Under the pieces are notes generated by a model. That model ran no database searches. It was not told the origin of the DNA and saw only the letters and a program-made list of their open reading frames with translations. A stretch of DNA of 23,075 nt from a virus, in the IMG/VR virus record IMGVR_UViG_3300046007_012567, positions 1 to 23,075 of that record. One strand, 5' to 3'. Position numbers and translations under genes: made by a program. This document shows, piece after piece, positions 364 through 11,313 of the stretch (positions within the stretch are counted from its first letter, which is position 1; each line of letters starts with the position of its first letter).

Positions 364-836
364 TATAAATATATGTTTCCTTTTACACCAGGCGCCATTG
401 CTTTAATTTCCTCTTCAGTATATTTTTTAGATAGTGGTGTATTACTTAAATCTAAATTGACTCCAACTTCAAGACCATCGGGAAGTGATTGGATTGGTGT
501 ATTCGTTAACCATAAACTACCTTCAACTTTAAGATCATTTGGAAGTGATTCAAGATTTTTACAATTATCTAAATCTAAACTACGTCCAACTTCAAGACCA
601 TCGGGAAGTGATTGGATTGGGGTATTCGTTAACCATAAATCACCTCCAACTTTAAGACCATTTGGTAGTGATTGGATTGATGTATTACTTAAATTTAAAT
701 CACCTTTTGAGCCATCCTTAATATACTGTTGGATTTTCTTTTGAGTGGCTATCAAATAGTTCTTTTGGCGTTCTTCGGAAGAGCGTCTTGGAACTAGGAT
801 TTGGGTTTCCTTAAGTAGGTCGAGTAGTTTTATCAT
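363..836 (-). CDS. Leucine-rich-repeat protein with capsid-targeting-like leader
   Basis: 157 aa. Residues 1-10 (MIKLLDLLKE) form a leader ending in L-K-E; a charged stretch to about residue 45 follows. Then come about five repeats of 20-23 residues with the core G-x-L-x-L-x-x-T-P-I-x-S-L-P-x-x-L-x-V, a bacterial-type LRR that should form a solenoid for protein binding. The C-terminus (TPLSKKYTEEE...) resembles that of the neighbouring LRR gene, so the two are tandem paralogs. It overlaps the upstream LRR gene by 4 nt (ATGA) and the downstream Cys-rich gene by 1 nt. The DNA repeats are nearly identical in places (462-516 and 585-639 differ at one base), so repeat number may vary by recombination. 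The binding partner is unknown. No signal peptide or membrane segment is visible. Confidence 0.85.
   Translation of the reverse strand: MIKLLDLLKETQILVPRRSSEERQKNYLIATQKKIQQYIKDGSKGDLNLSNTSIQSLPNGLKVGGDLWLTNTPIQSLPDGLEVGRSLDLDNCKNLESLPNDLKVEGSLWLTNTPIQSLPDGLEVGVNLDLSNTPLSKKYTEEEIKAMAPGVKGNIYL
462..639. repeat. Near-identical 55-nt repeats inside LRR gene
   Basis: The 55 bases at 462-516 recur at 585-639 with one mismatch, a 123-nt period covering two LRR units. Shorter, more diverged copies of the same unit occur through 645-705 and in the neighbouring LRR gene at about 945-1125. This indicates recent duplication or gene conversion among repeats. Confidence 0.85.
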
Positions 837-1246
837 TTTAAATATATGTCTCCTTTTACTTTTATATTAGGGTATTCTGCTTTAAGTTGTTTTTTGGTAG
901 TGTATTTTTTAGATAGTGGTGTCTCATATAAAAGTAAATCACCTCCAACTTTAAGACCATTTGGTAGTGATTGGATTGGTGTATTACCTAAATACAAATC
1001 ACCTCCAACTCTAAGATTATCGGGGAGTGATTGTATTTGTGAACTAATTAACCATAAATTACCTTCAACTTCAAGATCATTTGGAAGTGATTGGATTGGT
1101 GTATCGTTTAAATATAAATCACCTTCAACATTTAACTCTTCTTTTGTTAAAGTTTCAGGAGTATATATTAATTTAGCTGTAAAGGGTATTTTGTATTGAG
1201 GCTTTTTATCCTCAATAAATTTAAATAGATTATACATAGTGGCCAT
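833..1246 (-). CDS. Leucine-rich-repeat protein, tandem paralog
   Basis: 137 aa. About four LRR units of the form GDLYLxNTPIQSLPxxLxV occupy residues 38-108, capped by a TPLSKKYT segment and a KGDIYLK tail that match the end of the downstream LRR gene. The N-terminus differs from that paralog: MATMYNLFKFIED resembles the T4 internal-protein leader MKTYQEFIAE in shape (aromatic/hydrophobic, then Phe-Ile-Glu), but this is a weak match. A segment at residues 18-37 (KIPFTAKLIYTPETLTKEEL) links leader to repeats. It starts 2 nt after the stop of the 1249-1956 gene, so the TEWCTA-type protein and the two LRR proteins look co-translated. Function is presumably protein-protein interaction. The repeat family call is firm; the role is unknown. 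Confidence 0.83.
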   Translation of the reverse strand: MATMYNLFKFIEDKKPQYKIPFTAKLIYTPETLTKEELNVEGDLYLNDTPIQSLPNDLEVEGNLWLISSQIQSLPDNLRVGGDLYLGNTPIQSLPNGLKVGGDLLLYETPLSKKYTTKKQLKAEYPNIKVKGDIYLK

Positions 1247-1248
1247 TT

Positions 1249-1956
1249 TTAAATTATTGGAGTATCATCTTTATCCATAAATTGATCATTTTCATATGAA
1301 AATTGATATTTCTCTTCACTTCCAGGTTTGATAAATATAAAAAGAGGACCTGATGATATGTATTTATTAAAAAAGGATTGGGTTTTACCAGTAGCTGTAC
1401 ACCATTCTGTGCCTGAACCCAATTCGCATGAAACACCATATAAATCTTTACGACCTTTTGGTAATTCATATACATCAAATCCATCTACTGAGCCCATATA
1501 AAATTCTTTATATTTATCTGAGCGAGCAACTCCTTTTTGTTGGGAAGGATCTTTGGTTTCCTTATTAGCTATCTCAACTGATGTTTTGATAAATTGAGAT
1601 ATATCGTTGGTGGTTTTATATTGATTTATATCCGAATAAGGGTATGATTTTTTATTTCTATCAAATATTGAAAAATATTTTTTATATTTAGAAATATCTT
1701 CACTTTTAATAGTCTCATCTGCTACTTTTTTAACTAACCATGTAGCGTATGCTGATTTATTGCCGGTAGCATCTATTATTTCTGTAAAATCCTCAGATGA
1801 TATCTTTCCGGCATCTACAAATTGGGTTTTTAACTGGTCTATTGAAACTTCTGTGATTATTTCTTTTAAAAGAGTAGTTAATAGACATCTATTTGAGATT
1901 AAAATTTGTGAATTTTTTTTCATGTCGAGGAGTTTTATAATTTTGTTTTCCCCCAT
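1249..1956 (-). CDS. Phage protein of unknown function with TEWCTA / KYQF / FMD signature
   Basis: 235 aa. The N-terminal part carries two leader-like peptides: IIKLLD near residues 6-11, close to the leader of the LRR and Cys-rich genes, and LLTTLLKEIITE at about 25-36, which ends in Leu/Ile-x-Glu. A helical region follows. The C-terminal domain has TEWCTATG (183-190), GPLFIFI, KYQF and QFMDKDD. I recognise this signature from phage proteins that often carry LRR repeats in the same polypeptide; its function is not known to me. Here the LRRs are separate genes 2 nt downstream, so the module may have been split. The start at 1956 overlaps the upstream gene by 22 nt. An internal Met at 1923 would remove the overlap, but the homology of the IIKLLD segment to neighbouring leaders favours the longer form. 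Confidence 0.7.
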   Translation of the reverse strand: MGENKIIKLLDMKKNSQILISNRCLLTTLLKEIITEVSIDQLKTQFVDAGKISSEDFTEIIDATGNKSAYATWLVKKVADETIKSEDISKYKKYFSIFDRNKKSYPYSDINQYKTTNDISQFIKTSVEIANKETKDPSQQKGVARSDKYKEFYMGSVDGFDVYELPKGRKDLYGVSCELGSGTEWCTATGKTQSFFNKYISSGPLFIFIKPGSEEKYQFSYENDQFMDKDDTPII

Positions 1957-2663
1957 TTTTTACCTTTACCCGGATCTTTACACTTAGATGGTGTTGGACG
2001 ACATGAAGGATATTTTGAACGTATTTCGCCTTTTTGTCTCCCACATGGTTTGTATCCTGTTATTTTTCCGTCTTTGCGGATTGGTGAATTACAATCAACC
2101 CAACCTCCTGTTTTACCCGGTGCTCCTTTGCGTTTGAACCAGGTGCGGAGTGTTTCTTTTTGTTTTTCGGTTAATTGCTCTTCTTCTTTAATGCCTTTCC
2201 ATATTTTACCCTTACGGCATCTAACTACAGCTCCGGATTTGTAAGCTGATGGCTTATCGAATTTGCGGTCTGCAATGCGTAAGCATCTGTCGCGTTTTGA
2301 TTTTTTTTCTTGGATAATTTCTTTAATAAGACTTTTTAATTTTAGGTTTTCTGCTATAGTTGGTTTCGAAGAAAATTTAGCTCCCATTACATTTGGAAGT
2401 TTTTTAATATCTGAGAGTATTTGATCGTAGGAACTTTGGTCGAATGGAGTAAAAGGAGATGGGTCAATTTTAATGCGGGTTTTGATTAGGTGCCTGCCTT
2501 TTTCCGTGTTTTCATCAGTATATGTAATATCAATTGTTGTTACTCCTGTTATTGCTCTAATATCTGATATTATAGAAGTTATAGGACGTTTGCCTGCTTC
2601 AAGGGCGATAATACATTCTACTTCGTAGATATTAGGGTTATATGATTCGTGGAATAGTTTCAT
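1935..2663 (-). CDS. Modular basic protein with C-terminal DUF5872-like domain
   Basis: 242 aa with three segments. Residues 1-100 alternate strand and helix (YEVECIIALEAG, ITSIISDIRAITGV, then LIKTRIKID) and could be a ferredoxin-like fold. Residues 101-119 (IAENLKLKSLIKEIIQE) look like a leader peptide placed internally. Residues 120-160 hold a KRDRCLRIADRKFDKPSAYK element found in aquatic phage proteins. From 165 to the end, the WFKRKG, GGWVDCN, GYKPCGRQ, YPSCRPTP and KGKKWGK motifs match the DUF5872 type as I remember it. The C-terminal half is strongly basic and Cys-containing (C191, C207, C221, C228), consistent with zinc or nucleic-acid binding, but no activity is known. The gap to the upstream gene is 10 nt, with an A-rich leader and no Shine-Dalgarno. 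Confidence 0.75.
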   Translation of the reverse strand: MKLFHESYNPNIYEVECIIALEAGKRPITSIISDIRAITGVTTIDITYTDENTEKGRHLIKTRIKIDPSPFTPFDQSSYDQILSDIKKLPNVMGAKFSSKPTIAENLKLKSLIKEIIQEKKSKRDRCLRIADRKFDKPSAYKSGAVVRCRKGKIWKGIKEEEQLTEKQKETLRTWFKRKGAPGKTGGWVDCNSPIRKDGKITGYKPCGRQKGEIRSKYPSCRPTPSKCKDPGKGKKWGKTKL

Positions 2664-2673
2664 AAAGTATATT

Positions 2674-3849
2674 TTACCAAAAACCGCTAAAATTTGATTT
2701 TAAACCAAGTAACTTAGCATATCTGGGGAGGCGACAACTCCAATATGAAGCTTTTGTACGATCTTTTTTATTAGCACAATCGTGTCTTTTAGCAAATGCA
2801 CGGCGGGCTTCTGGGTTGTTGATTTTGGCTGATAAGCCTGTAGTGTCTCCAAAAGATACTTTTTTGATACCACCACCAGGTTTTCTTACATAAACATAGA
2901 ATTTTTTAGATCCACCACGTTTTGGTTTGCCAATTGGTGGATTTTTTTTCTTAGCTTTTTTAGCTTCGTCTATATTTTTAGAAAGTTTATACAAACCCCT
3001 TGATTCAAAACGTTCTAAACCATTTAATGCTACATTATTTACAGTTAAGTTATTATCCCCTATTTTTAAATTTTTTATTTGATTAGGGGCTAACCTTTTA
3101 GAAAGAGCAGGAGTTGTTTTAAACCTATTTAATAATCTATCATCAGTAAAATTGAGTATAATGTTATGGGTATTTTTATAATTTGCTTCATCTAATTCTT
3201 CCTTTAAGGAAGTATTTTTTAAGAAATTATCCATTTCTTTTTTAGGGATGTATAATATTTTTATATTTTGGTTATTTTGTCCATATCCTTTAATACTATA
3301 AAAGCTTTCATTATCGTCATCAAATTGATATTGAACTGAAATTATATCTTCTGGTTTGAACTGGGTTCCTCTAATTGAGGTTTCTTTATCTATAATTAAT
3401 GTTTTTGGGTTATTTAACAAATTATCTGTTGTTATTTTAGCTTCATCTAATTCTTTCTTTTCTTCTATTTCCTCAAAAATATAATCTAATGGAACCTTTT
3501 TACCTTCATATATCCCAAACTCACCTAGTTGTGTTTCGGTTAGTATTTCAAGATCGTCTTGGTTTTTGATATCTATAATACCGCGAGAATACAATGCTCT
3601 TGCCTCGGACCATAAATTAAAATAATTTTGCGAACCAGCACGATATACATGTTCAGTAAGCGGTTTGTTATTGTCTATATGATATTTAAGTCCCTCAGAC
3701 AATATTTCGCGCGGTGCGATTGATTCATTAAGTATAGGCGCTATTATGCGTTTATCTTCACAAGTGTTACAACCACAAGAACATGATTTTTTCTTTAAGT
3801 TATGTACTTGGATAGATTCTTTGATAAGTTTTTTTATTAGTGCTTTCAT
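2674..3849 (-). CDS. Multi-module phage protein with repeated LxEA-type junctions (possible processed polyprotein)
   Basis: 391 aa. The leader MKALIKKLIKE (1-11) precedes a CSCGCNTC cluster (23-30). The next module (53-135), with GLKYHID, NLWSEARALY and EFGIYEGKKVPLDY motifs, is one I know from T4-like aquatic phages. Modules at 137-220 and 222-294 are not recognised. The C-terminal module (about 300-391: KPKRGGSKKFYVYV, SFGD, ARRAFAKRHDC, YWSCR) is a widespread phage family of unknown function. The modules are separated by Leu/Ile-x-Glu sites: ILNE 39-42, ILSE 49-52, ELDEA 133-137, ELDEA 218-222 and NIDEA 292-296. These match the T4 gp21 cleavage consensus, so the product may be cut into pieces in the prohead. 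Its ATG overlaps the upstream nuclease stop by 4 nt. Coding is certain, processing is inferred. Confidence 0.8.
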   Translation of the reverse strand: MKALIKKLIKESIQVHNLKKKSCSCGCNTCEDKRIIAPILNESIAPREILSEGLKYHIDNNKPLTEHVYRAGSQNYFNLWSEARALYSRGIIDIKNQDDLEILTETQLGEFGIYEGKKVPLDYIFEEIEEKKELDEAKITTDNLLNNPKTLIIDKETSIRGTQFKPEDIISVQYQFDDDNESFYSIKGYGQNNQNIKILYIPKKEMDNFLKNTSLKEELDEANYKNTHNIILNFTDDRLLNRFKTTPALSKRLAPNQIKNLKIGDNNLTVNNVALNGLERFESRGLYKLSKNIDEAKKAKKKNPPIGKPKRGGSKKFYVYVRKPGGGIKKVSFGDTTGLSAKINNPEARRAFAKRHDCANKKDRTKASYWSCRLPRYAKLLGLKSNFSGFW

Positions 3850-4994
3850 TTTACTTTTTCAAATTGATTTCCTTGCAATTCATATATATTTGCTGCTTTA
3901 AAAGCTACAGCTTTAGTCATTGCTATTGCTTCATTATTTTTTATTCCAAACATATTTCTATCTGCTCTATAACTTGATGTAAGATATGGATAATATTCTC
4001 CTTCGGGAAGTTGAGGTGGAATAAGTTCATATTCAGCTATCAATTCATAAATATTATCTTGGATTGGTTTTAATGAAATAATACCTTGAAGTATAACAGT
4101 AACATTATCTTTACTATATTCATTATCACCATATTTTGGACCATATATTAGTTTTCTAACTAATTCTGCATCTTTTATTGGTGATATAAATCTAGTTCCT
4201 TTGGGGAGCCCTTCTTGTTCTAGGTTATTTTCTTTGAGCCAATTTTTTAGAGCCTCATTGAATTGTCTTACTTCAGGTTCGTTAACATATGATGTGTATC
4301 CACTCCATCTTATAAAATCAGAAGCATCGGCATATTTTCCTCCTGCTTTTTTATGTGAAATAAATACTACAGGTTTATTATCTTTATTTATTAGATTAAA
4401 ATCTGATTTAGGTTGCCCGTATTGTGTTTCGGCTTTAACTATATTATTATATATGTTGTTACCTACTTTAACATTTATTGGACCTTCATTTTCTTTTACT
4501 AAATCTAAAATTTGATTATTTAAAAGTTGCAAATTTGCGTCTTCTACTTTAGTTCCTGATCCTTTTCCTTGTCCCCCAAAATATGAGTCTTTTAAGAGAT
4601 CAGATATGCTATAAGTCTTGCCGGTATTATCTTTAAAGAAAGGAAAAAGATTTATATTTTTCCCTATTGCTAGTTTTTTTATATCATCTTTTTCTCTAGA
4701 AAGAAATATATCGGAGTGTTGTGGATCAATAAATTGAAGAATAGTAGATTCCCCATTTACTAATTCAAATGGTAATTTGTTTTCAATTTTTTTAGCTAAA
4801 TCTGCAAATCTATATCCTCCTCTTTTACTTAAATCAAAGAAAGTAAGATTTCTAAATTCAGCTTCATTTATATTAATTCCTAGTTTTTCTAGTATACTTT
4901 CAAGCAACAAAATATCCTGATCGTTATTTAAATCAGGATATCCTTTTGGAAATTTATAAGCAAATTTCTTAAAAAATATGTCAAATACGTCCAT
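3846..4994 (-). CDS. PD-(D/E)XK-like phage nuclease with N-terminal leader domain
   Basis: 382 aa. Residues 1-44 (FFKKFAYKFPKGYPDLNN, then LLLESILEKLGININE) form a leader that I have seen on other phage proteins; it ends INE before AEFR, a Leu/Ile-x-Glu-Ala site. The remainder contains E152 in KVEDANLQ and D198 followed by F-N-L-I-N-K-D-N-K-P-V-V-F-I-S-H-K (K215). That is a beta-hairpin with Asp and a Lys after a hydrophobic strand, as in PD-(D/E)XK endonuclease-like folds. SHKKAGGKYADASDFIRWSG is strongly conserved in what I recall of the family. The likely role is DNA cleavage, perhaps of host DNA, if delivered or made early. It overlaps both neighbours by 1-4 nt. The nuclease call rests on motif pattern alone and a structural relative without activity is possible. 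Confidence 0.65.
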   Translation of the reverse strand: MDVFDIFFKKFAYKFPKGYPDLNNDQDILLLESILEKLGININEAEFRNLTFFDLSKRGGYRFADLAKKIENKLPFELVNGESTILQFIDPQHSDIFLSREKDDIKKLAIGKNINLFPFFKDNTGKTYSISDLLKDSYFGGQGKGSGTKVEDANLQLLNNQILDLVKENEGPINVKVGNNIYNNIVKAETQYGQPKSDFNLINKDNKPVVFISHKKAGGKYADASDFIRWSGYTSYVNEPEVRQFNEALKNWLKENNLEQEGLPKGTRFISPIKDAELVRKLIYGPKYGDNEYSKDNVTVILQGIISLKPIQDNIYELIAEYELIPPQLPEGEYYPYLTSSYRADRNMFGIKNNEAIAMTKAVAFKAANIYELQGNQFEKVK

Positions 4995-5491
4995 TATGAT
5001 GCGGGTTCGGGTATTGCTTCTTCTTCAGCTGCTGGTTCTTCAGCAGCAGGTAATTCTTCACCTGTTTCTTCAGCAGGCATATTTTCATTTTTGGCTGGCT
5101 TAGCTGAGGCAAAATATAATAATCTTGAAATTGCTTCTGCTGCTGATTCTTCTTCGTTTAAGTTTAATAAGTAATATTTTTTGCCCTCCACTTGGGCTAT
5201 CCAGCTTCTTTCTGTAAAGATAAGATAAAACATCTCATCGTTCTGTAATATAATTCTGAAAGTTGTAGGGCGCGGAGCAACCCATTCAATGTCTGAAAGG
5301 AATATTTCGTATTGGGATGTAAGTAAATTTTTTATTACTTTTTGGAGGTCGGGGAATTTTGCTAGAACAGGGAATTTAACAGGGCCTAGAGAAATGGGAG
5401 ATGGCGCGTCCAAATCTACCGGGGCAGATTTAGACTTATATACTTGTTGTACAACAGCGCGAATTTTATCTCTTAGTTCTGCTTTGGTCAT
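4994..5491 (-). CDS. Conserved phage protein with Ala/Glu-rich acidic tail
   Basis: 165 aa. Residues 1-20 (MTKAELRDKIRAVVQQVYKS) form a short amphipathic helix similar in look, but not in cleavage motif, to the leaders of neighbouring genes. The globular part at about 40-130 contains KFPDLQKVIKNLL, SDIEWVAPRPTTFRIIL, a WIAQVEGKKYYLLNL strand pair and AISRLLYF. I recognise this as a recurrent hypothetical protein of T4-like aquatic phages, often with a PKPTTF core. The last 35 residues are low-complexity Pro/Ala/Glu (repeats of AAEEPAAEE type), probably disordered. Function is unknown. Its stop overlaps the downstream nuclease start by one base (TAATG). The start is the only ATG that includes the conserved leader helix, and it is preceded by AATAAAAA rather than a Shine-Dalgarno. 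Confidence 0.75.
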   Translation of the reverse strand: MTKAELRDKIRAVVQQVYKSKSAPVDLDAPSPISLGPVKFPVLAKFPDLQKVIKNLLTSQYEIFLSDIEWVAPRPTTFRIILQNDEMFYLIFTERSWIAQVEGKKYYLLNLNEEESAAEAISRLLYFASAKPAKNENMPAEETGEELPAAEEPAAEEEAIPEPAS

Positions 5492-5541: not shown

Positions 5542-6021
5542 TCATCGTTGTAAGGCTTGACTAATAAGTGAATATATTTTGTCTTTTCCTTCAGGACTAT
5601 AATTTACTACTTCTTTAATTTCTTCAACAGCACCTACAATAGCATCGTAATCGTCCATTGTTAATGTACCTCTTTCTTTACCTAAAGCATTTGCTTTTTC
5701 GGTAACGTCATGTAAATCCATGTCTTGAGAGGCATCTTCTCTTGAATATTCTAACATACGAAGAAATAAAGGAATATCCATTGTGATAGTATCTACTTTA
5801 TCTTCGGATTTAGCTTCATTAAATTTTTCTTTAGAAAGAAACTTCATTTTATTTAATTTATTAGCATGTTGTTTTGCTTCTTCTTCTGTATCAAAGGATG
5901 TTATTTCATTTCCATTTCTTAAAACAGAAAATCCTTTTTTAGAGGGTTCAACATAGTATTTTTCTTGGACTTCATCTAAAGGTTTAGAGAAAAATTCTTT
6001 GATTTTTTGTAGATCTTCCAT
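5542..6021 (-). CDS. Conserved phage protein, two small domains
   Basis: 159 aa. The N-terminal part (MEDLQKIKEFFSKPLDEVQEKYYVE) leads into a compact beta-alpha unit (GFSVLRNGNEITSFDTEEEAKQHANKL) that looks like a DUF2188-type or similar small fold. A related element occurs in the 14073-14429 product (KNKSEANRHATEVL). A linker with FNEAKSEDK follows. The C-terminal domain (TITMDIPLFLRMLEYSREDASQDMDLHDV, then LTMDDYDAIVG) is an all-helical module common in aquatic T4-like phages, function unknown. It lies 2 nt after the 6024-6746 gene and is translated from a TAAATAAAAATG junction. The 50-nt gap downstream holds no complete ORF. Confidence 0.78.
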   Translation of the reverse strand: MEDLQKIKEFFSKPLDEVQEKYYVEPSKKGFSVLRNGNEITSFDTEEEAKQHANKLNKMKFLSKEKFNEAKSEDKVDTITMDIPLFLRMLEYSREDASQDMDLHDVTEKANALGKERGTLTMDDYDAIVGAVEEIKEVVNYSPEGKDKIYSLISQALQR

Positions 6022-6023
6022 TT

Positions 6024-6746
6024 TTATTTAGATAGTTTAGCTGCTATTGCCATTTGACGTTTCTTTTCTTTAGATTTTCCTTTAAATTGAGGTGCTTTGC
6101 TTTTAGAAAAATCATCTATATATGTTTTCATAGAAGATTTAGCAGTAAGTTTTTCTAATACTTTAGCTTTGATTTCTTCTATATTTGAAATTTCATTATC
6201 AATTGCTCCTGTATTTTGAGCAACACCTACCATAGCATCAATTTCTGGTTCTTTAAGTTCAAATTCAAGGTAGTGTTTTGCGCTGCTGATCATAGAGGCG
6301 GCATTAGTAATTTTGGATTGCCACCAAGCCGGAAAATCAACTTCACCTTGCCCTTCAAATTGATCTACCATTTGATAAAGTTCCATAGCGTATTTTCCAA
6401 TTTTATATAAATCGGCTTTAAGCATGTGTGGTTCGTTATCTTCGTGGCCTAAGTCTAGGTCTTCGTCTAACTCAACCCCTCTACCTTTTAAAATATCGGC
6501 TTGAGTTACTTTGCCATCTCCAGTTAAATCAGGGAATGATTTTTTCTTTTCATTCATTAAGGCAGCCTTAACTGCTTCTTTAATTTTATCTGTATGTTCC
6601 ATATCTTGTACTTTTTTAGCTTCTTTTCTAGCTTTGCCGTATATTATGGCATCTGGATTTTTATATTTTTTAATGAGTTTAGAGACATTCCCTAGCATAC
6701 CTTGCTTAACTTTATCAAAAGTTTCTTGGTATCCTTCGTTGATCAT
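6024..6746 (-). CDS. EF-hand-containing helical phage protein
   Basis: 240 aa, mostly helical and rich in Lys/Glu. It begins MINEG, the shortest possible version of an Ile-x-Glu-Gly processing site. A single EF-hand/dockerin-like Ca2+ loop (DLTGDGKVTQAD, about residues 74-85) has Asp/Thr/Asp/Lys/Asp at the usual ligand positions. A module at about 100-180 follows (MLKADLYKIGKYAMELYQMV, FPAWWQSKI, SSAKHYLEFELKEPEIDAMV), which I recognise as a recurrent aquatic-phage domain of unknown function. The C-terminal tail (about 205-240) is very basic (KSKAPQFKGKSKEKKRQMAIAAKLSK), suggesting nucleic-acid contact. The gene is separated by 1 nt from the upstream gene and 2 nt from the downstream one. A structural or head-internal role is possible; no enzymatic motif is seen. 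Confidence 0.77.
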   Translation of the reverse strand: MINEGYQETFDKVKQGMLGNVSKLIKKYKNPDAIIYGKARKEAKKVQDMEHTDKIKEAVKAALMNEKKKSFPDLTGDGKVTQADILKGRGVELDEDLDLGHEDNEPHMLKADLYKIGKYAMELYQMVDQFEGQGEVDFPAWWQSKITNAASMISSAKHYLEFELKEPEIDAMVGVAQNTGAIDNEISNIEEIKAKVLEKLTAKSSMKTYIDDFSKSKAPQFKGKSKEKKRQMAIAAKLSK

Positions 6747-7981: not shown

Positions 7982-8474
7982 ATTTTCTTATTGTTTCTTG
8001 TATATCTTTTTTTATACTTATTGTATATTGATCTGGGGAAATTCCTGCGTTTTTCATTACTTCTTTTATAATATTTGTAATATTAGGGGATATATTACTT
8101 TTATATGGAAAATATATACTATTCCCTTCTATTTCATATTTAAGTAAAGAAGATTTGCTGGATATTTGTTTAATTAGATCGTCAATAGCTTGTTTTGTTT
8201 TGGTAGGGAATGGTTTTCCTCTTTGTTTTTCTAGGGCTCTACGTTTCATAGGTACAGAAGGGCCAAAATAGTCTTCAACAGCTTTATTAATTTCTGCTTT
8301 ATTTCTTAGATTAGAAACATACATTCCATAGTTTTCTATTTTGCTAAAAGCGGAGGATAAATCTTCTATCCCTATTCCACCTTTAGGGGTTAATAGTATA
8401 CCTACTGGGTTTGATTGGATTCTCTTTTGAGATCCTAGACCATCATCTTCGTTTTCTCTTAATTTATAAGCCAT
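7953..8474 (-). CDS. Conserved hypothetical phage protein
   Basis: 173 aa if begun at the internal ATG at 8474 (MAYKLRENEDDG). The longer open frame reaching 8531 adds a hydrophobic stretch lying wholly inside the end of the 949-aa gene, so I consider the shorter start more likely; it overlaps that gene's stop by 11 nt. The sequence contains GILLTPKGGIGIEDLSSAFSK, a central helical part (RALEKQRGKPFPTKTKQAID) and a C-terminal IRKYVKEAIQRA helix with Val-Lys-Glu-Ala. I do not recognise the family. No membrane segment, Cys cluster or enzyme motif is seen. Its C-terminus overlaps the zinc-ribbon gene start by 29 nt, so coupled expression is likely. Confidence 0.72.
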   Translation of the reverse strand: MAYKLRENEDDGLGSQKRIQSNPVGILLTPKGGIGIEDLSSAFSKIENYGMYVSNLRNKAEINKAVEDYFGPSVPMKRRALEKQRGKPFPTKTKQAIDDLIKQISSKSSLLKYEIEGNSIYFPYKSNISPNITNIIKEVMKNAGISPDQYTISIKKDIQETIRKYVKEAIQRA

Positions 8475-11313
8475 ATTTTTTAAGTTGTTTAAGTGTATCG
8501 TTTGTTGAAGTATGTAATATACCAATACCACCTCTATTATTCCATTGTTCTATATTTGATTCTTTATCGTCTATTAAAATGGCCTTTGGGGTCGCATATT
8601 TTTGTTTTTCGTCGGCTGGGACTAGAAATATTTCTTTTACATTAGTAAGATTATTATCTATCCATTCTAATTTTCCTTCCTTAGAAGAAGGGTCTGAAGA
8701 AGGTGCTGAGAGTATATTAGGGTTGTATTTTTTAATATGGTTCCATAACTTTTCGCCATCGGACATCCAAGGAATATTAGACCAAAACTTAGATCCTTCA
8801 CTATTAATTAATTTCCAAAATGCTTTTTTTCCGAATTTTTTTTCATATTCTTCTGGGGGTGTGTTATTTGATATGTTTTGGAAGCTTTTATCAAAATCAC
8901 ATAATACCCCATCCATATCACAATATATTTCATATCCCTCGGTTCCCTTATCCCCCCCGGTTCCCTTATCCCCTTTCTCTTCTCTCATTTTCCCACTATT
9001 TTCTTTAACCCCGTAACTAGAACATACGGACATATTTTCAGATTGCCAAGTTTTTTTTGAAAGAGAATCTGTCCAATTTCGAAACATTATATTTCCTCTT
9101 TCGTATGCCTCTCTTTCGATTTCATCCAAATGAGAATCTTCGGTTGTATTTTGGGTTCTAATATTCCCTAATGTACCCTTCATATTTTGTTCGTGATGCA
9201 CCATTTCATGACAAAACGAACGTAAAATATCTTTAGGGTGACGATTTAAAGTATATAATACAATAGTTTTAGATTGTGGATTATAATATGCTGTTGTCCC
9301 TAAAATATCTTGGGCATTAGTTATATCATCTTCTACAAATTGAATTTTAGGTAATGGTCGGATTTCCATACCTTGATTTATCATAAATTTAGATATTTCA
9401 AGAAGGAGTGGTTTATACCCTGAGCCGTATGGAGAAGATTTACCTGAATGATTTGGTGCTACATTTTCTTTTTGTGTGCGTAGGCGTTCTGTTTTTTCTT
9501 TAGATGCTTCTTTTCTCTGTTCAGCATATTCTAAAGCATTTTTTAAACGCGATTTAACCTCAGGATCTTTAGCTCTTTCATATGCTGCTCTAACACGTTG
9601 GTGTATTAGATTGATTATTTGGGATTGGCGAGCGTGTGATTTAGATTTAAAAGATTCTTTAGATAAAGTATCTATAATATCCTGTTTAGTAGAAAATTTA
9701 ATACGAACTGTATCTTTTGGGTTTTCATCTGTGTATAATCTACGGCCTGAGCCTTTTGGCTTTTTACCTGTACCTGTTTTAGGATCAGCTTCATTTATAC
9801 CACCAGGGGTATTTAATTTCTCGCCGGTTTCAGTATTTGTATCGTACCCGCAAGTTCCCTCTTCTAATCTTAAAGCATTTCTATACTCCTCAGGAGTTAT
9901 ACCATCAGGTATATATTTTTGTATATCTTCTCCTTTTTTTAAGGCAGTTCTTAAACCAGTAGCGCTTAAATTTCCTGCTGCTCCACTATAATTTTTAACA
10001 ACAACGTTTTGAGGTATTTGTCCAAATCTATTAAGATCTTCTTCTTTTCCAAATACTGCTATATATTGTTGTTGGGGATTATTTATAAATAGTTCATATG
10101 CTGCTGCTACTGGGCTTGGAGATGGGACGGGAAGCAATGGGTCATTTGCCGCTACTACTTTTACATTTGGGGGTAAATTAAGCTTTTTAAAAAGTTCTAA
10201 GCTTTGTTCTAAAGTTATAGGCATTTCTACTCCTAATCTAGCTTCAAGTTCTTCTTTCTTTTTTCTAGAAGCAGCTGTGCCTCCTGGTTCTGTTTTAGGC
10301 GATACTATTACAATCACTTCATCAGCATCAGCTGCGGCCGCCCTAATTCTTGCTATATGATCTTTATGTGGAGGTTTAAATTTACCGGGAAATACTGCTA
10401 TAGTTTTTTTATTTTCATCTTCTAAAAGAAAAGGTCTTATTAATTCTAAAACTAAAGGGTCATATTTTTCTTCTAATGAGCTAACTATATCTAATGCTTG
10501 TTGTTTCTTATCACCTTTTTCAGTCCCTGCTTCAGCATCTCCTACTCGTATGTTTTTAGCAAACATTCCTTTAAGACGATCTATTGATCTTCTATTTTTA
10601 AATTTTTTAATTTTTGATATAATACTATCAAATTTGTCTTTTTCAATATCAATATCTAAATATGAAAGTAAAGTTTTAACATCTTTAAAATTATTAGATT
10701 TCCATATTTCTCTACCCCCACTTTTTCCTATAGGAACAATTTTTAAAGATAGTTCTGAGGGATTTAAATTAAAATCGTACTCTTCTCCTTCGCCGGGTTT
10801 ATCTGTATCTGGTATATTAAGATCTTTAAATAGCTTTTCTATTTGAGTTTCATCCAGTTCAGTAAGTATTGCTTTAGCTAAACCTATTGCCAATACTTGT
10901 TCTTGAGCTGGCAAATCTAGCATTTTATATGTAAATTTGCCTTCTTCTTTAGATACTGTTACTATATTATCTATTTGAACATATTCTCCTTCTTTACCTT
11001 GTATTGGATATAAAGTAGAAACAATATTTCCGTGAATAAAATATTTTTTACCTTTTTTAGGAATAATAGGAATTTGGTTAATTTGATCTAAAAATTCTCC
11101 TAATCTCTTTTTTAGCTCAGATTTATCTCCTTCTGGGAAGGAAACAACAATATCTATATCTCCAAAAATATTTTTTTCTGGCCTAGAGCGAATACCTGTG
11201 ATGTTATATGATTTATCTAATCCTAAAGGTTTTAAAACATTATCCCTATAGTCACGAATTGTGGCCTTTAAATTTTCTTTACTTATACGTGATCCACCTG
11301 CTGCTCCACTCAT
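8464..11313 (-). CDS. 949-aa fusion: nucleotidyltransferase + HIGH nucleotidylyltransferase + HExxH metallopeptidase + HAD phosphatase
   Basis: Four enzyme-like regions occur in order. (1) Residues about 15-150: a Pol-beta-type nucleotidyltransferase core with ITGIRSRP followed by GDIDIVV (Asp-x-Asp, D52/D54). (2) About 302-480: a cytidylyltransferase/NMNAT-like fold with FPGKFKPPHKDH (HxxH at 316-319) and SATGLR (450-455), standing in for the ISxTxxR motif. (3) About 635-750: a zinc peptidase with HEMVH (702-706) and a downstream glutamate in HLDEIEREAYERG. (4) About 794-949: a HAD phosphatase with DMDGVLCDF (nucleophile D799, acid D801), LSAPS, K910 and LIDD (915-916). Linkers are helical or low in complexity; Leu/Ile-x-Glu sites lie near boundaries (LLE 296-298, INEA 506-509, LLE 637-639). 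Each domain keeps its key residues, so all may be active. Nucleotide, NAD or RNA-end metabolism is possible; the substrate is unknown. It starts 3 nt after the other nucleotidyltransferase gene. Confidence 0.8.
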   Translation of the reverse strand: MSGAAGGSRISKENLKATIRDYRDNVLKPLGLDKSYNITGIRSRPEKNIFGDIDIVVSFPEGDKSELKKRLGEFLDQINQIPIIPKKGKKYFIHGNIVSTLYPIQGKEGEYVQIDNIVTVSKEEGKFTYKMLDLPAQEQVLAIGLAKAILTELDETQIEKLFKDLNIPDTDKPGEGEEYDFNLNPSELSLKIVPIGKSGGREIWKSNNFKDVKTLLSYLDIDIEKDKFDSIISKIKKFKNRRSIDRLKGMFAKNIRVGDAEAGTEKGDKKQQALDIVSSLEEKYDPLVLELIRPFLLEDENKKTIAVFPGKFKPPHKDHIARIRAAAADADEVIVIVSPKTEPGGTAASRKKKEELEARLGVEMPITLEQSLELFKKLNLPPNVKVVAANDPLLPVPSPSPVAAAYELFINNPQQQYIAVFGKEEDLNRFGQIPQNVVVKNYSGAAGNLSATGLRTALKKGEDIQKYIPDGITPEEYRNALRLEEGTCGYDTNTETGEKLNTPGGINEADPKTGTGKKPKGSGRRLYTDENPKDTVRIKFSTKQDIIDTLSKESFKSKSHARQSQIINLIHQRVRAAYERAKDPEVKSRLKNALEYAEQRKEASKEKTERLRTQKENVAPNHSGKSSPYGSGYKPLLLEISKFMINQGMEIRPLPKIQFVEDDITNAQDILGTTAYYNPQSKTIVLYTLNRHPKDILRSFCHEMVHHEQNMKGTLGNIRTQNTTEDSHLDEIEREAYERGNIMFRNWTDSLSKKTWQSENMSVCSSYGVKENSGKMREEKGDKGTGGDKGTEGYEIYCDMDGVLCDFDKSFQNISNNTPPEEYEKKFGKKAFWKLINSEGSKFWSNIPWMSDGEKLWNHIKKYNPNILSAPSSDPSSKEGKLEWIDNNLTNVKEIFLVPADEKQKYATPKAILIDDKESNIEQWNNRGGIGILHTSTNDTLKQLKKYGL
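8940..8973 (-). repeat. 18-nt tandem duplication with G-tracts in protease-HAD linker
   Basis: On the coding strand GGGGATAAGGGAACCG occurs twice with an 18-nt period, encoding the in-frame linker GDKGTG/GDKGTE between the metallopeptidase and HAD domains. Four G-tracts (8973-8970, 8965-8963, 8958-8952, 8947-8945) with 4-nt loops fit the canonical G-quadruplex pattern, striking in such AT-rich DNA. Confidence 0.8.

Follow-up and report, generated by a model that had tools for sequence, protein, structure and literature searches.

A modular phage gene with prohead-protease-like sites at its module borders, proposed to encode a virion-cargo polyprotein

The window analysed here is the whole 23,075-nt stretch of IMG/VR record IMGVR_UViG_3300046007_012567, a 23-kb fragment of a virus that infects aquatic bacteria, probably of the Bacteroidota. 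Neither a protease gene nor capsid or other head genes are present in this window. The gene of interest, designated gene A, has a short leader that we call capsid-targeting-like by its pattern, without alignment to the leaders of T4; behind it lie a conserved N-domain, two central modules and a basic C-domain (Table 1). No Pfam match below E 0.1 was found for the whole gene A chain or for its four domains. Positions 6-93 of the 96 in the phrog_7595 profile match C-domain residues 295-373 (E 1.8e-9), but this family has no assigned function and does not cover the other modules of gene A or its sites. The window also contains a short gene B, which in relatives is a longer chain proposed as a second cassette polyprotein.

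Table 1. Parts of gene A and gene B in the window; arrows mark predicted cuts after Glu.
Feature	Position	Strand	Remarks
Gene A, cargo polyprotein (proposed)	2674..3849	-	ATG start, 391 aa
Leader MKALIKKLIKE↓S, capsid-targeting-like	3817..3849	-	residues 1-11, ends in [LI]xE
LNE↓S, predicted site	3721..3732	-	residues 40-43; conserved in most homologues
LSE↓G, predicted site	3691..3702	-	residues 50-53; conserved in close homologues
Conserved N-domain	3442..3693	-	residues 53-136, 9.9 kDa, pI 4.7; from alignment, folded in model
LDE↓A, predicted site	3439..3450	-	residues 134-137; breakpoint 136; linker 125-147, pLDDT<50
Module 1	3187..3441	-	residues 137-221, 9.9 kDa; also in L010, L083-L085
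LDE↓A, predicted site	3184..3195	-	residues 219-222; breakpoint 221; linker 216-225
Module 2	2965..3186	-	residues 222-295, 8.5 kDa, pI 9.9; also in L009, L086, L087
IDE↓A, predicted site	2962..2973	-	residues 293-296; breakpoint 294; linker 293-302
Basic C-domain, phrog_7595	2677..2964	-	residues 296-391, 10.8 kDa, pI 10.8
Gene B, short counterpart of second cassette polyprotein	5542..6021	-	159 aa; leader FFSKPLDE↓V
FNE↓A module boundary in gene B	5812..5823	-	residues 67-70

Several other genes of the window have features of their own. Gene A is adjoined by a gene for a DUF5872 protein (E 1e-6; 1935-2663, minus strand) with a basic, Cys-rich C-terminus. At 363-836 and 833-1246 (minus strand), two neighbouring proteins contain SLPDGLEVGG-type, leucine-rich-repeat-like repeats, and the first of them begins with MIKLLDLLKE, which fits the leader pattern. 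A 949-aa fusion (8464-11313, minus strand; also L102:7131-10455) joins a cytidylyltransferase-like stretch, behind which lie LEE↓G and INE↓A sites, to a C-terminal 5'-deoxynucleotidase; in Flavobacterium phage immuto, unlike in this fusion, the nucleotidase has a gene to itself, gp087. A linker of the form GK[AS][AS]PYGSGY recurs in several different genes, often after EN[VI]APNH or KE[AT]xxPQ, and was seen in the 9432 region of the window (minus strand) and in L102, L108, L109, L117, L120, L002, L009, L030, L031, L087 and L111.

The sequence-only reading of this DNA had placed ELDEA at residues 133-137 and 218-222, NIDEA at 292-296, and ILNE and ILSE ahead of the first conserved domain of the gene A protein, and had considered such DEA-type sites to be in excess of chance. 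All of these placements are correct, with LNE↓S at 40-43 and LSE↓G at 50-53, and [LI]DEA occurs three times in the 391-aa protein where residue shuffles lead one to expect 0.011. For the broader pattern [LI]xE[AGS], there are 7 matches against 0.86 expected, a number reached in none of 2000 residue shuffles, and the same shuffle scan of the window found no comparable site richness in its other genes. However, the "D-E-A core" of that reading does not hold as a conserved unit. The P2 position is free (E, N, A, D, F, Y, S and K are all found), and the actual constraint is [LI]-x-E followed by A, S or G. Of the seven matches, the one at 113 (IYE↓G) is probably due to chance, since it lies inside a predicted strand of the folded N-domain in the AlphaFold2 model.

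That model was built on an alignment of 18 sequences and has a mean pLDDT of 67.5. In it, the N-domain, module 1, module 2 and the C-domain each have folded segments, and pLDDT drops below 50 chiefly at residues 9-33, 125-147, 216-225 and 293-302, besides two segments of three residues each. The location of the sites inside folded domains would have spoken against a polyprotein, but as predicted by AlphaFold2 the three DEA sites fall in low-confidence linkers between the folded modules. The folds of both central modules remain tentative because few sequences of the alignment cover them. We also attempted to name a function by comparison with PDB structures, but the scores were middling and too weak for this purpose: the best match (Z 5.9) was procarboxypeptidase B with module 2, while module 1 gave SH3-, Sm- and Pur-alpha-like rows. 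Matches in a viral structure library were uncharacterised phage proteins, some of them annotated as ChaB or XkdF.

The homologues of gene A make the modular construction apparent. We collected 80 homologue-bearing loci from viral contigs, and many of the gene A homologues in them are only ~210-230 aa long, with the same leader region, conserved domain and basic C-domain and a single site between the two domains. Of 36 non-redundant homologues, 23 have 14-24 aa separating the two conserved domains and 13 have 78-188 aa there; these longer stretches hold one or two additional modules, two in the case of the window protein. Module 1, which is absent from most homologues, is the sole extra module in L010. 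Module 2 occurs alone or beside other modules, and also within a different gene, which encodes a 1464-aa protein of L088. The suggestion that the central modules had each brought a site of their own is borne out: homologues without them have one site where the window protein has three, and the sites move with the modules, as an [LI]xE of its own closes module 1 in L010 and likewise module 2 in L009, L086 and L087. Exchange is seen in L007 and L002, where both flanking domains have 91-93% DNA identity to the window; between these near-identical flanks, a module is absent from L007 and a different one is present in L002. Exchange also extends beyond gene A, as one module that sits between MNE↓A and IHE↓A in gene B of L006 is also present in gene A of both L012 and L087.

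In relatives, gene B is likewise a chain of several modules, most of them ended by a site. The FNE↓A boundary in gene B of the window corresponds to [LVM]NE↓A in L006, L004, L002 and L056, and about eight borders can be read in gene B of L056/L112. Another gene B module is shared by gene B of L006, gene B of L117 and a 601-aa fusion of L120, the other parts of which resemble, by eye and unscored, the window genes at 6024-6746 and 4994-5491. In L121:1069-3633, an HD_4 domain (E 6e-15) directly follows a VAE↓G border, and in L125:1245-2870, VAE↓G borders recur along a chain that weakly matches GNAT, which suggests both another P3 preference (V) and an occurrence of the scheme beyond this group. 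The HD_4 domain is of a type seen in ppGpp hydrolases, and the L121 chain, if packaged, could target alarmone signals upon phage entry. In L002:4880-6055, the gene B leader occurs twice, once as IKEFFSKSINE↓A at the start and again some 50 residues further on as IKEFFSKPLEE↓A, which looks as though a leader with its site had turned into an internal border. An AlphaFold2 model of the L006 gene B chain had a mean pLDDT of 44 and could not be used.

The correspondence between borders and sites was examined with breakpoints defined as BLASTP homology breaks between homologues, without any use of the motif. In the gene A protein, breakpoint peaks fall at residues 136, 221 and 294, next to P1 Glu residues at 136, 221 and 295, as expected if the sites lie at module boundaries; weaker peaks were found at 23, 46, 145 and 285. 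Across 61 related proteins, 77 of 154 breakpoint peaks are no more than 6 residues from an [LI]xE[AGS] site, against 21.3 expected, while the control polar-x-E[AGS] gave 10 against 9.7, and none of the 638 two-residue patterns tested scored as high as [LI]xE[AGS]. Enrichment was at first also apparent for the reversed motif [AGS]Ex[LI] (27 against 6.5), but this was discarded, as it vanished once similar contexts were collapsed (5 against 4.4). With the same collapsing, [LIVMF]xE[AGS] is still found at 37 of 125 breakpoints (16.9 expected; 0 of 5000 permutations), with controls flat. The relatives are not phylogenetically independent, which inflates the z-scores, so these figures tell direction and specificity and not exact significance. 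At the C-domain border, an [LIVM]xE lies within 22 aa upstream in all 46 non-redundant homologues (24.7 expected). It is directly followed by A, G or S in 40 of them, against 11.3 expected, and has L or I at P3 in all but one, with P2 variable. The six homologues with another P1' residue count against the reading developed below.

A protease that could act on such sites is encoded in relatives. Phage immuto encodes a Peptidase_S77, the family of T4 gp21, as gp070, and has portal and capsid genes of T4 type. A Peptidase_S77 was also found in four large contigs in which gene A or gene B occurs (G001, G004, G007 and G008). There was no S77 match in G002 (124 kb), G006 (73 kb) or G005 (68 kb), which bear homologues and are possibly incomplete; this too weighs against the reading developed below. 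The 269-kb contig G008 has two Peptidase_S77 genes (C1:31291-31773 and 233494-233940). The immuto S77 protein matches the T4 gp21 structure 5jbl with an E of 3e-24, and retains the Ser of the conserved SRG as well as a His, in GELDHP, where the 5jbl construct has Ala, presumably a catalytic-His mutant. In T4, gp21 cleaves after L/I-X-E, and a Glu-Ala bond is cut in gp22 (PMC9026906). What would be asked of a gp21-type substrate, namely [LI]-x-E sites, mostly before A, G or S, above chance and at plausible cut positions, is found in gene A. In immuto, leader-like N-termini ending in [LI]xE are concentrated in the head genes and the homologous gene block, where 17 of 24 proteins have one, compared with 32 of 190 (p 1e-7). 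No virion proteome of immuto was found in the literature, nor any proteomic or N-terminal data on the proteins described here.

On this evidence, we consider it probable that gene A encodes a virion-cargo polyprotein, targeted by its leader, cut by the S77 protease in the prohead and organized as an array of cassettes. What has been observed is the modular anatomy, the protease-like border motif, the exchange of modules both inside a gene and from one gene to another, and the presence of the protease in relatives; cleavage, packaging, ejection and an anti-host role are inferred. The leader would bring the chain into the prohead core, where the Peptidase_S77 prohead protease would cleave [LI]-x-E sites behind their Glu, in most cases with A, S or G as the next residue. 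Leader peptides and four mature proteins of 74-96 residues (residues 53-136, 137-221, 222-295 and 296-391) would be released, and these would remain with the DNA and probably be ejected into the host. Because each segment ends in its own site, a whole segment could be gained, dropped or transferred to another gene without harm to its neighbours, and the gene would be a cassette array for re-arming the virion. The sequence-only reading of the gene as polyprotein-like, with sites between modules, is thus supported by its anatomy, its homologues and its linkers, with cleavage itself not demonstrated.

An alternative that we regard as unlikely is that the protein is a component of the prohead core or scaffold, like T4 gp67, gp68 or gp22, the pieces of which are cut, mostly leave the head and are not delivered. 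The motif would be the same, and T4 core proteins are indeed cut into several fragments that are mostly removed (PMC9026906). A genome-wide scan for site density had been proposed, and in immuto and G001 it placed scaffold-like or core-like proteins at the top, with MCP high in both and gene A high in G001; this result also counts in favour of the cargo polyprotein. However, the sites of the scaffold-like proteins are scattered along the chain, whereas the three DEA sites of gene A are at the borders of folded modules. Module content that is highly variable among near-identical relatives also suits accessory cargo better, and some modules of related chains, the HD_4 of L121 and the weak GNAT of L125, look enzymatic. 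Less credible still is the possibility that the sites are flexible linkers that are never cut, and that the chain acts as one multidomain protein. Acidic, Ala-rich linkers are common between domains, and cleavage data are absent. But such linkers have no need for a fixed hydrophobic P3, a free P2, a fixed Glu and a small P1', polar-x-E[AGS], the reversed motif and other controls are not enriched at borders after similar contexts are collapsed, and the site logo equals that of the protease found in relatives. That the border repeat is a recombination signal in the DNA, with the protein motif as a by-product, is very improbable, for although the modules clearly recombine and the first two sites of the window share the DNA GAATTAGATGAAGC, the site codons are at background usage and differ at synonymous positions among phages, so that the constraint acts on amino acids. 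Border DNA could nevertheless aid recombination between recent copies, which is compatible with a cargo polyprotein.

If gene A does encode a cargo polyprotein, the closest precedents are the internal proteins of T4. IPI, IPII, IPIII and Alt have a short N-terminal leader ending in L/I-x-E, to which the predicted leader of gene A is comparable by its pattern; as with the proposed pieces of gene A, the internal proteins are small and variable, with ~75-100 residues behind the targeting part, and they are processed by a prohead protease of the same family as the S77 of the relatives (PMC9026906, PMC3012670). They are diverse, with only the capsid-targeting sequence in common, and the mature form of IPI, of 76 residues, blocks a host restriction enzyme (PMC3012670). 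T4 has one cargo per gene, whereas gene A has several, each closed by a site, with modules that are mobile between genes. The acidic N-domain and module 1 of gene A are unlike the basic internal proteins of T4, which counts against a cargo role. Several prohead-protease cuts in one chain are known from T4 gp22, gp67 and gp68 and from the long propeptides of phage SPN3US (PMC9026906; PMC10052503), but most of those pieces belong to scaffold or propeptide and do not remain, while the main sites of gene A lie between folded, swappable modules. The polyvalent proteins of phages and conjugative elements are multidomain proteins predicted to be packaged and delivered, with parts freed by proteolysis, and were likened to polyproteins by their authors (PMC5512222). 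Gene A resembles them in having several domains per chain; however, they have recognisable effector and often embedded peptidase domains (PMC5512222), neither of which Pfam finds in gene A, and gene A is therefore not counted among this class. Unlike them, gene A would depend on the capsid-maturation protease in trans.

Virion cargo of T4-like phages is already known; the cassette-polyprotein arrangement would be the new part, with an anatomy that is well supported and a processing that is inferred. We found no description of such cassette arrays in the literature, within open-licence papers. We also lean, with less assurance than for gene A itself, towards the more general view that cassette polyproteins with a shared protease border are how many T4-like phages of aquatic bacteria encode the proteins that their virions deliver, the modules being shuffled between genes and phages and the protease processing the injected arsenal. 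The small hypothetical proteins of aquatic phages are seldom explained. If the border rule holds, [LI]-x-E followed by A, G or S at homology breaks would flag genes of unknown function as virion cargo, and the same pattern would give the mature ends of the cargo, its mode of evolution and a list of candidate anti-host proteins. Module swapping suggests a simple route by which a phage could re-arm the set of proteins that it may inject. If true, this would be a counterpart, in viruses of prokaryotes, of the polyprotein strategy, with the capsid-maturation protease as the processing enzyme.
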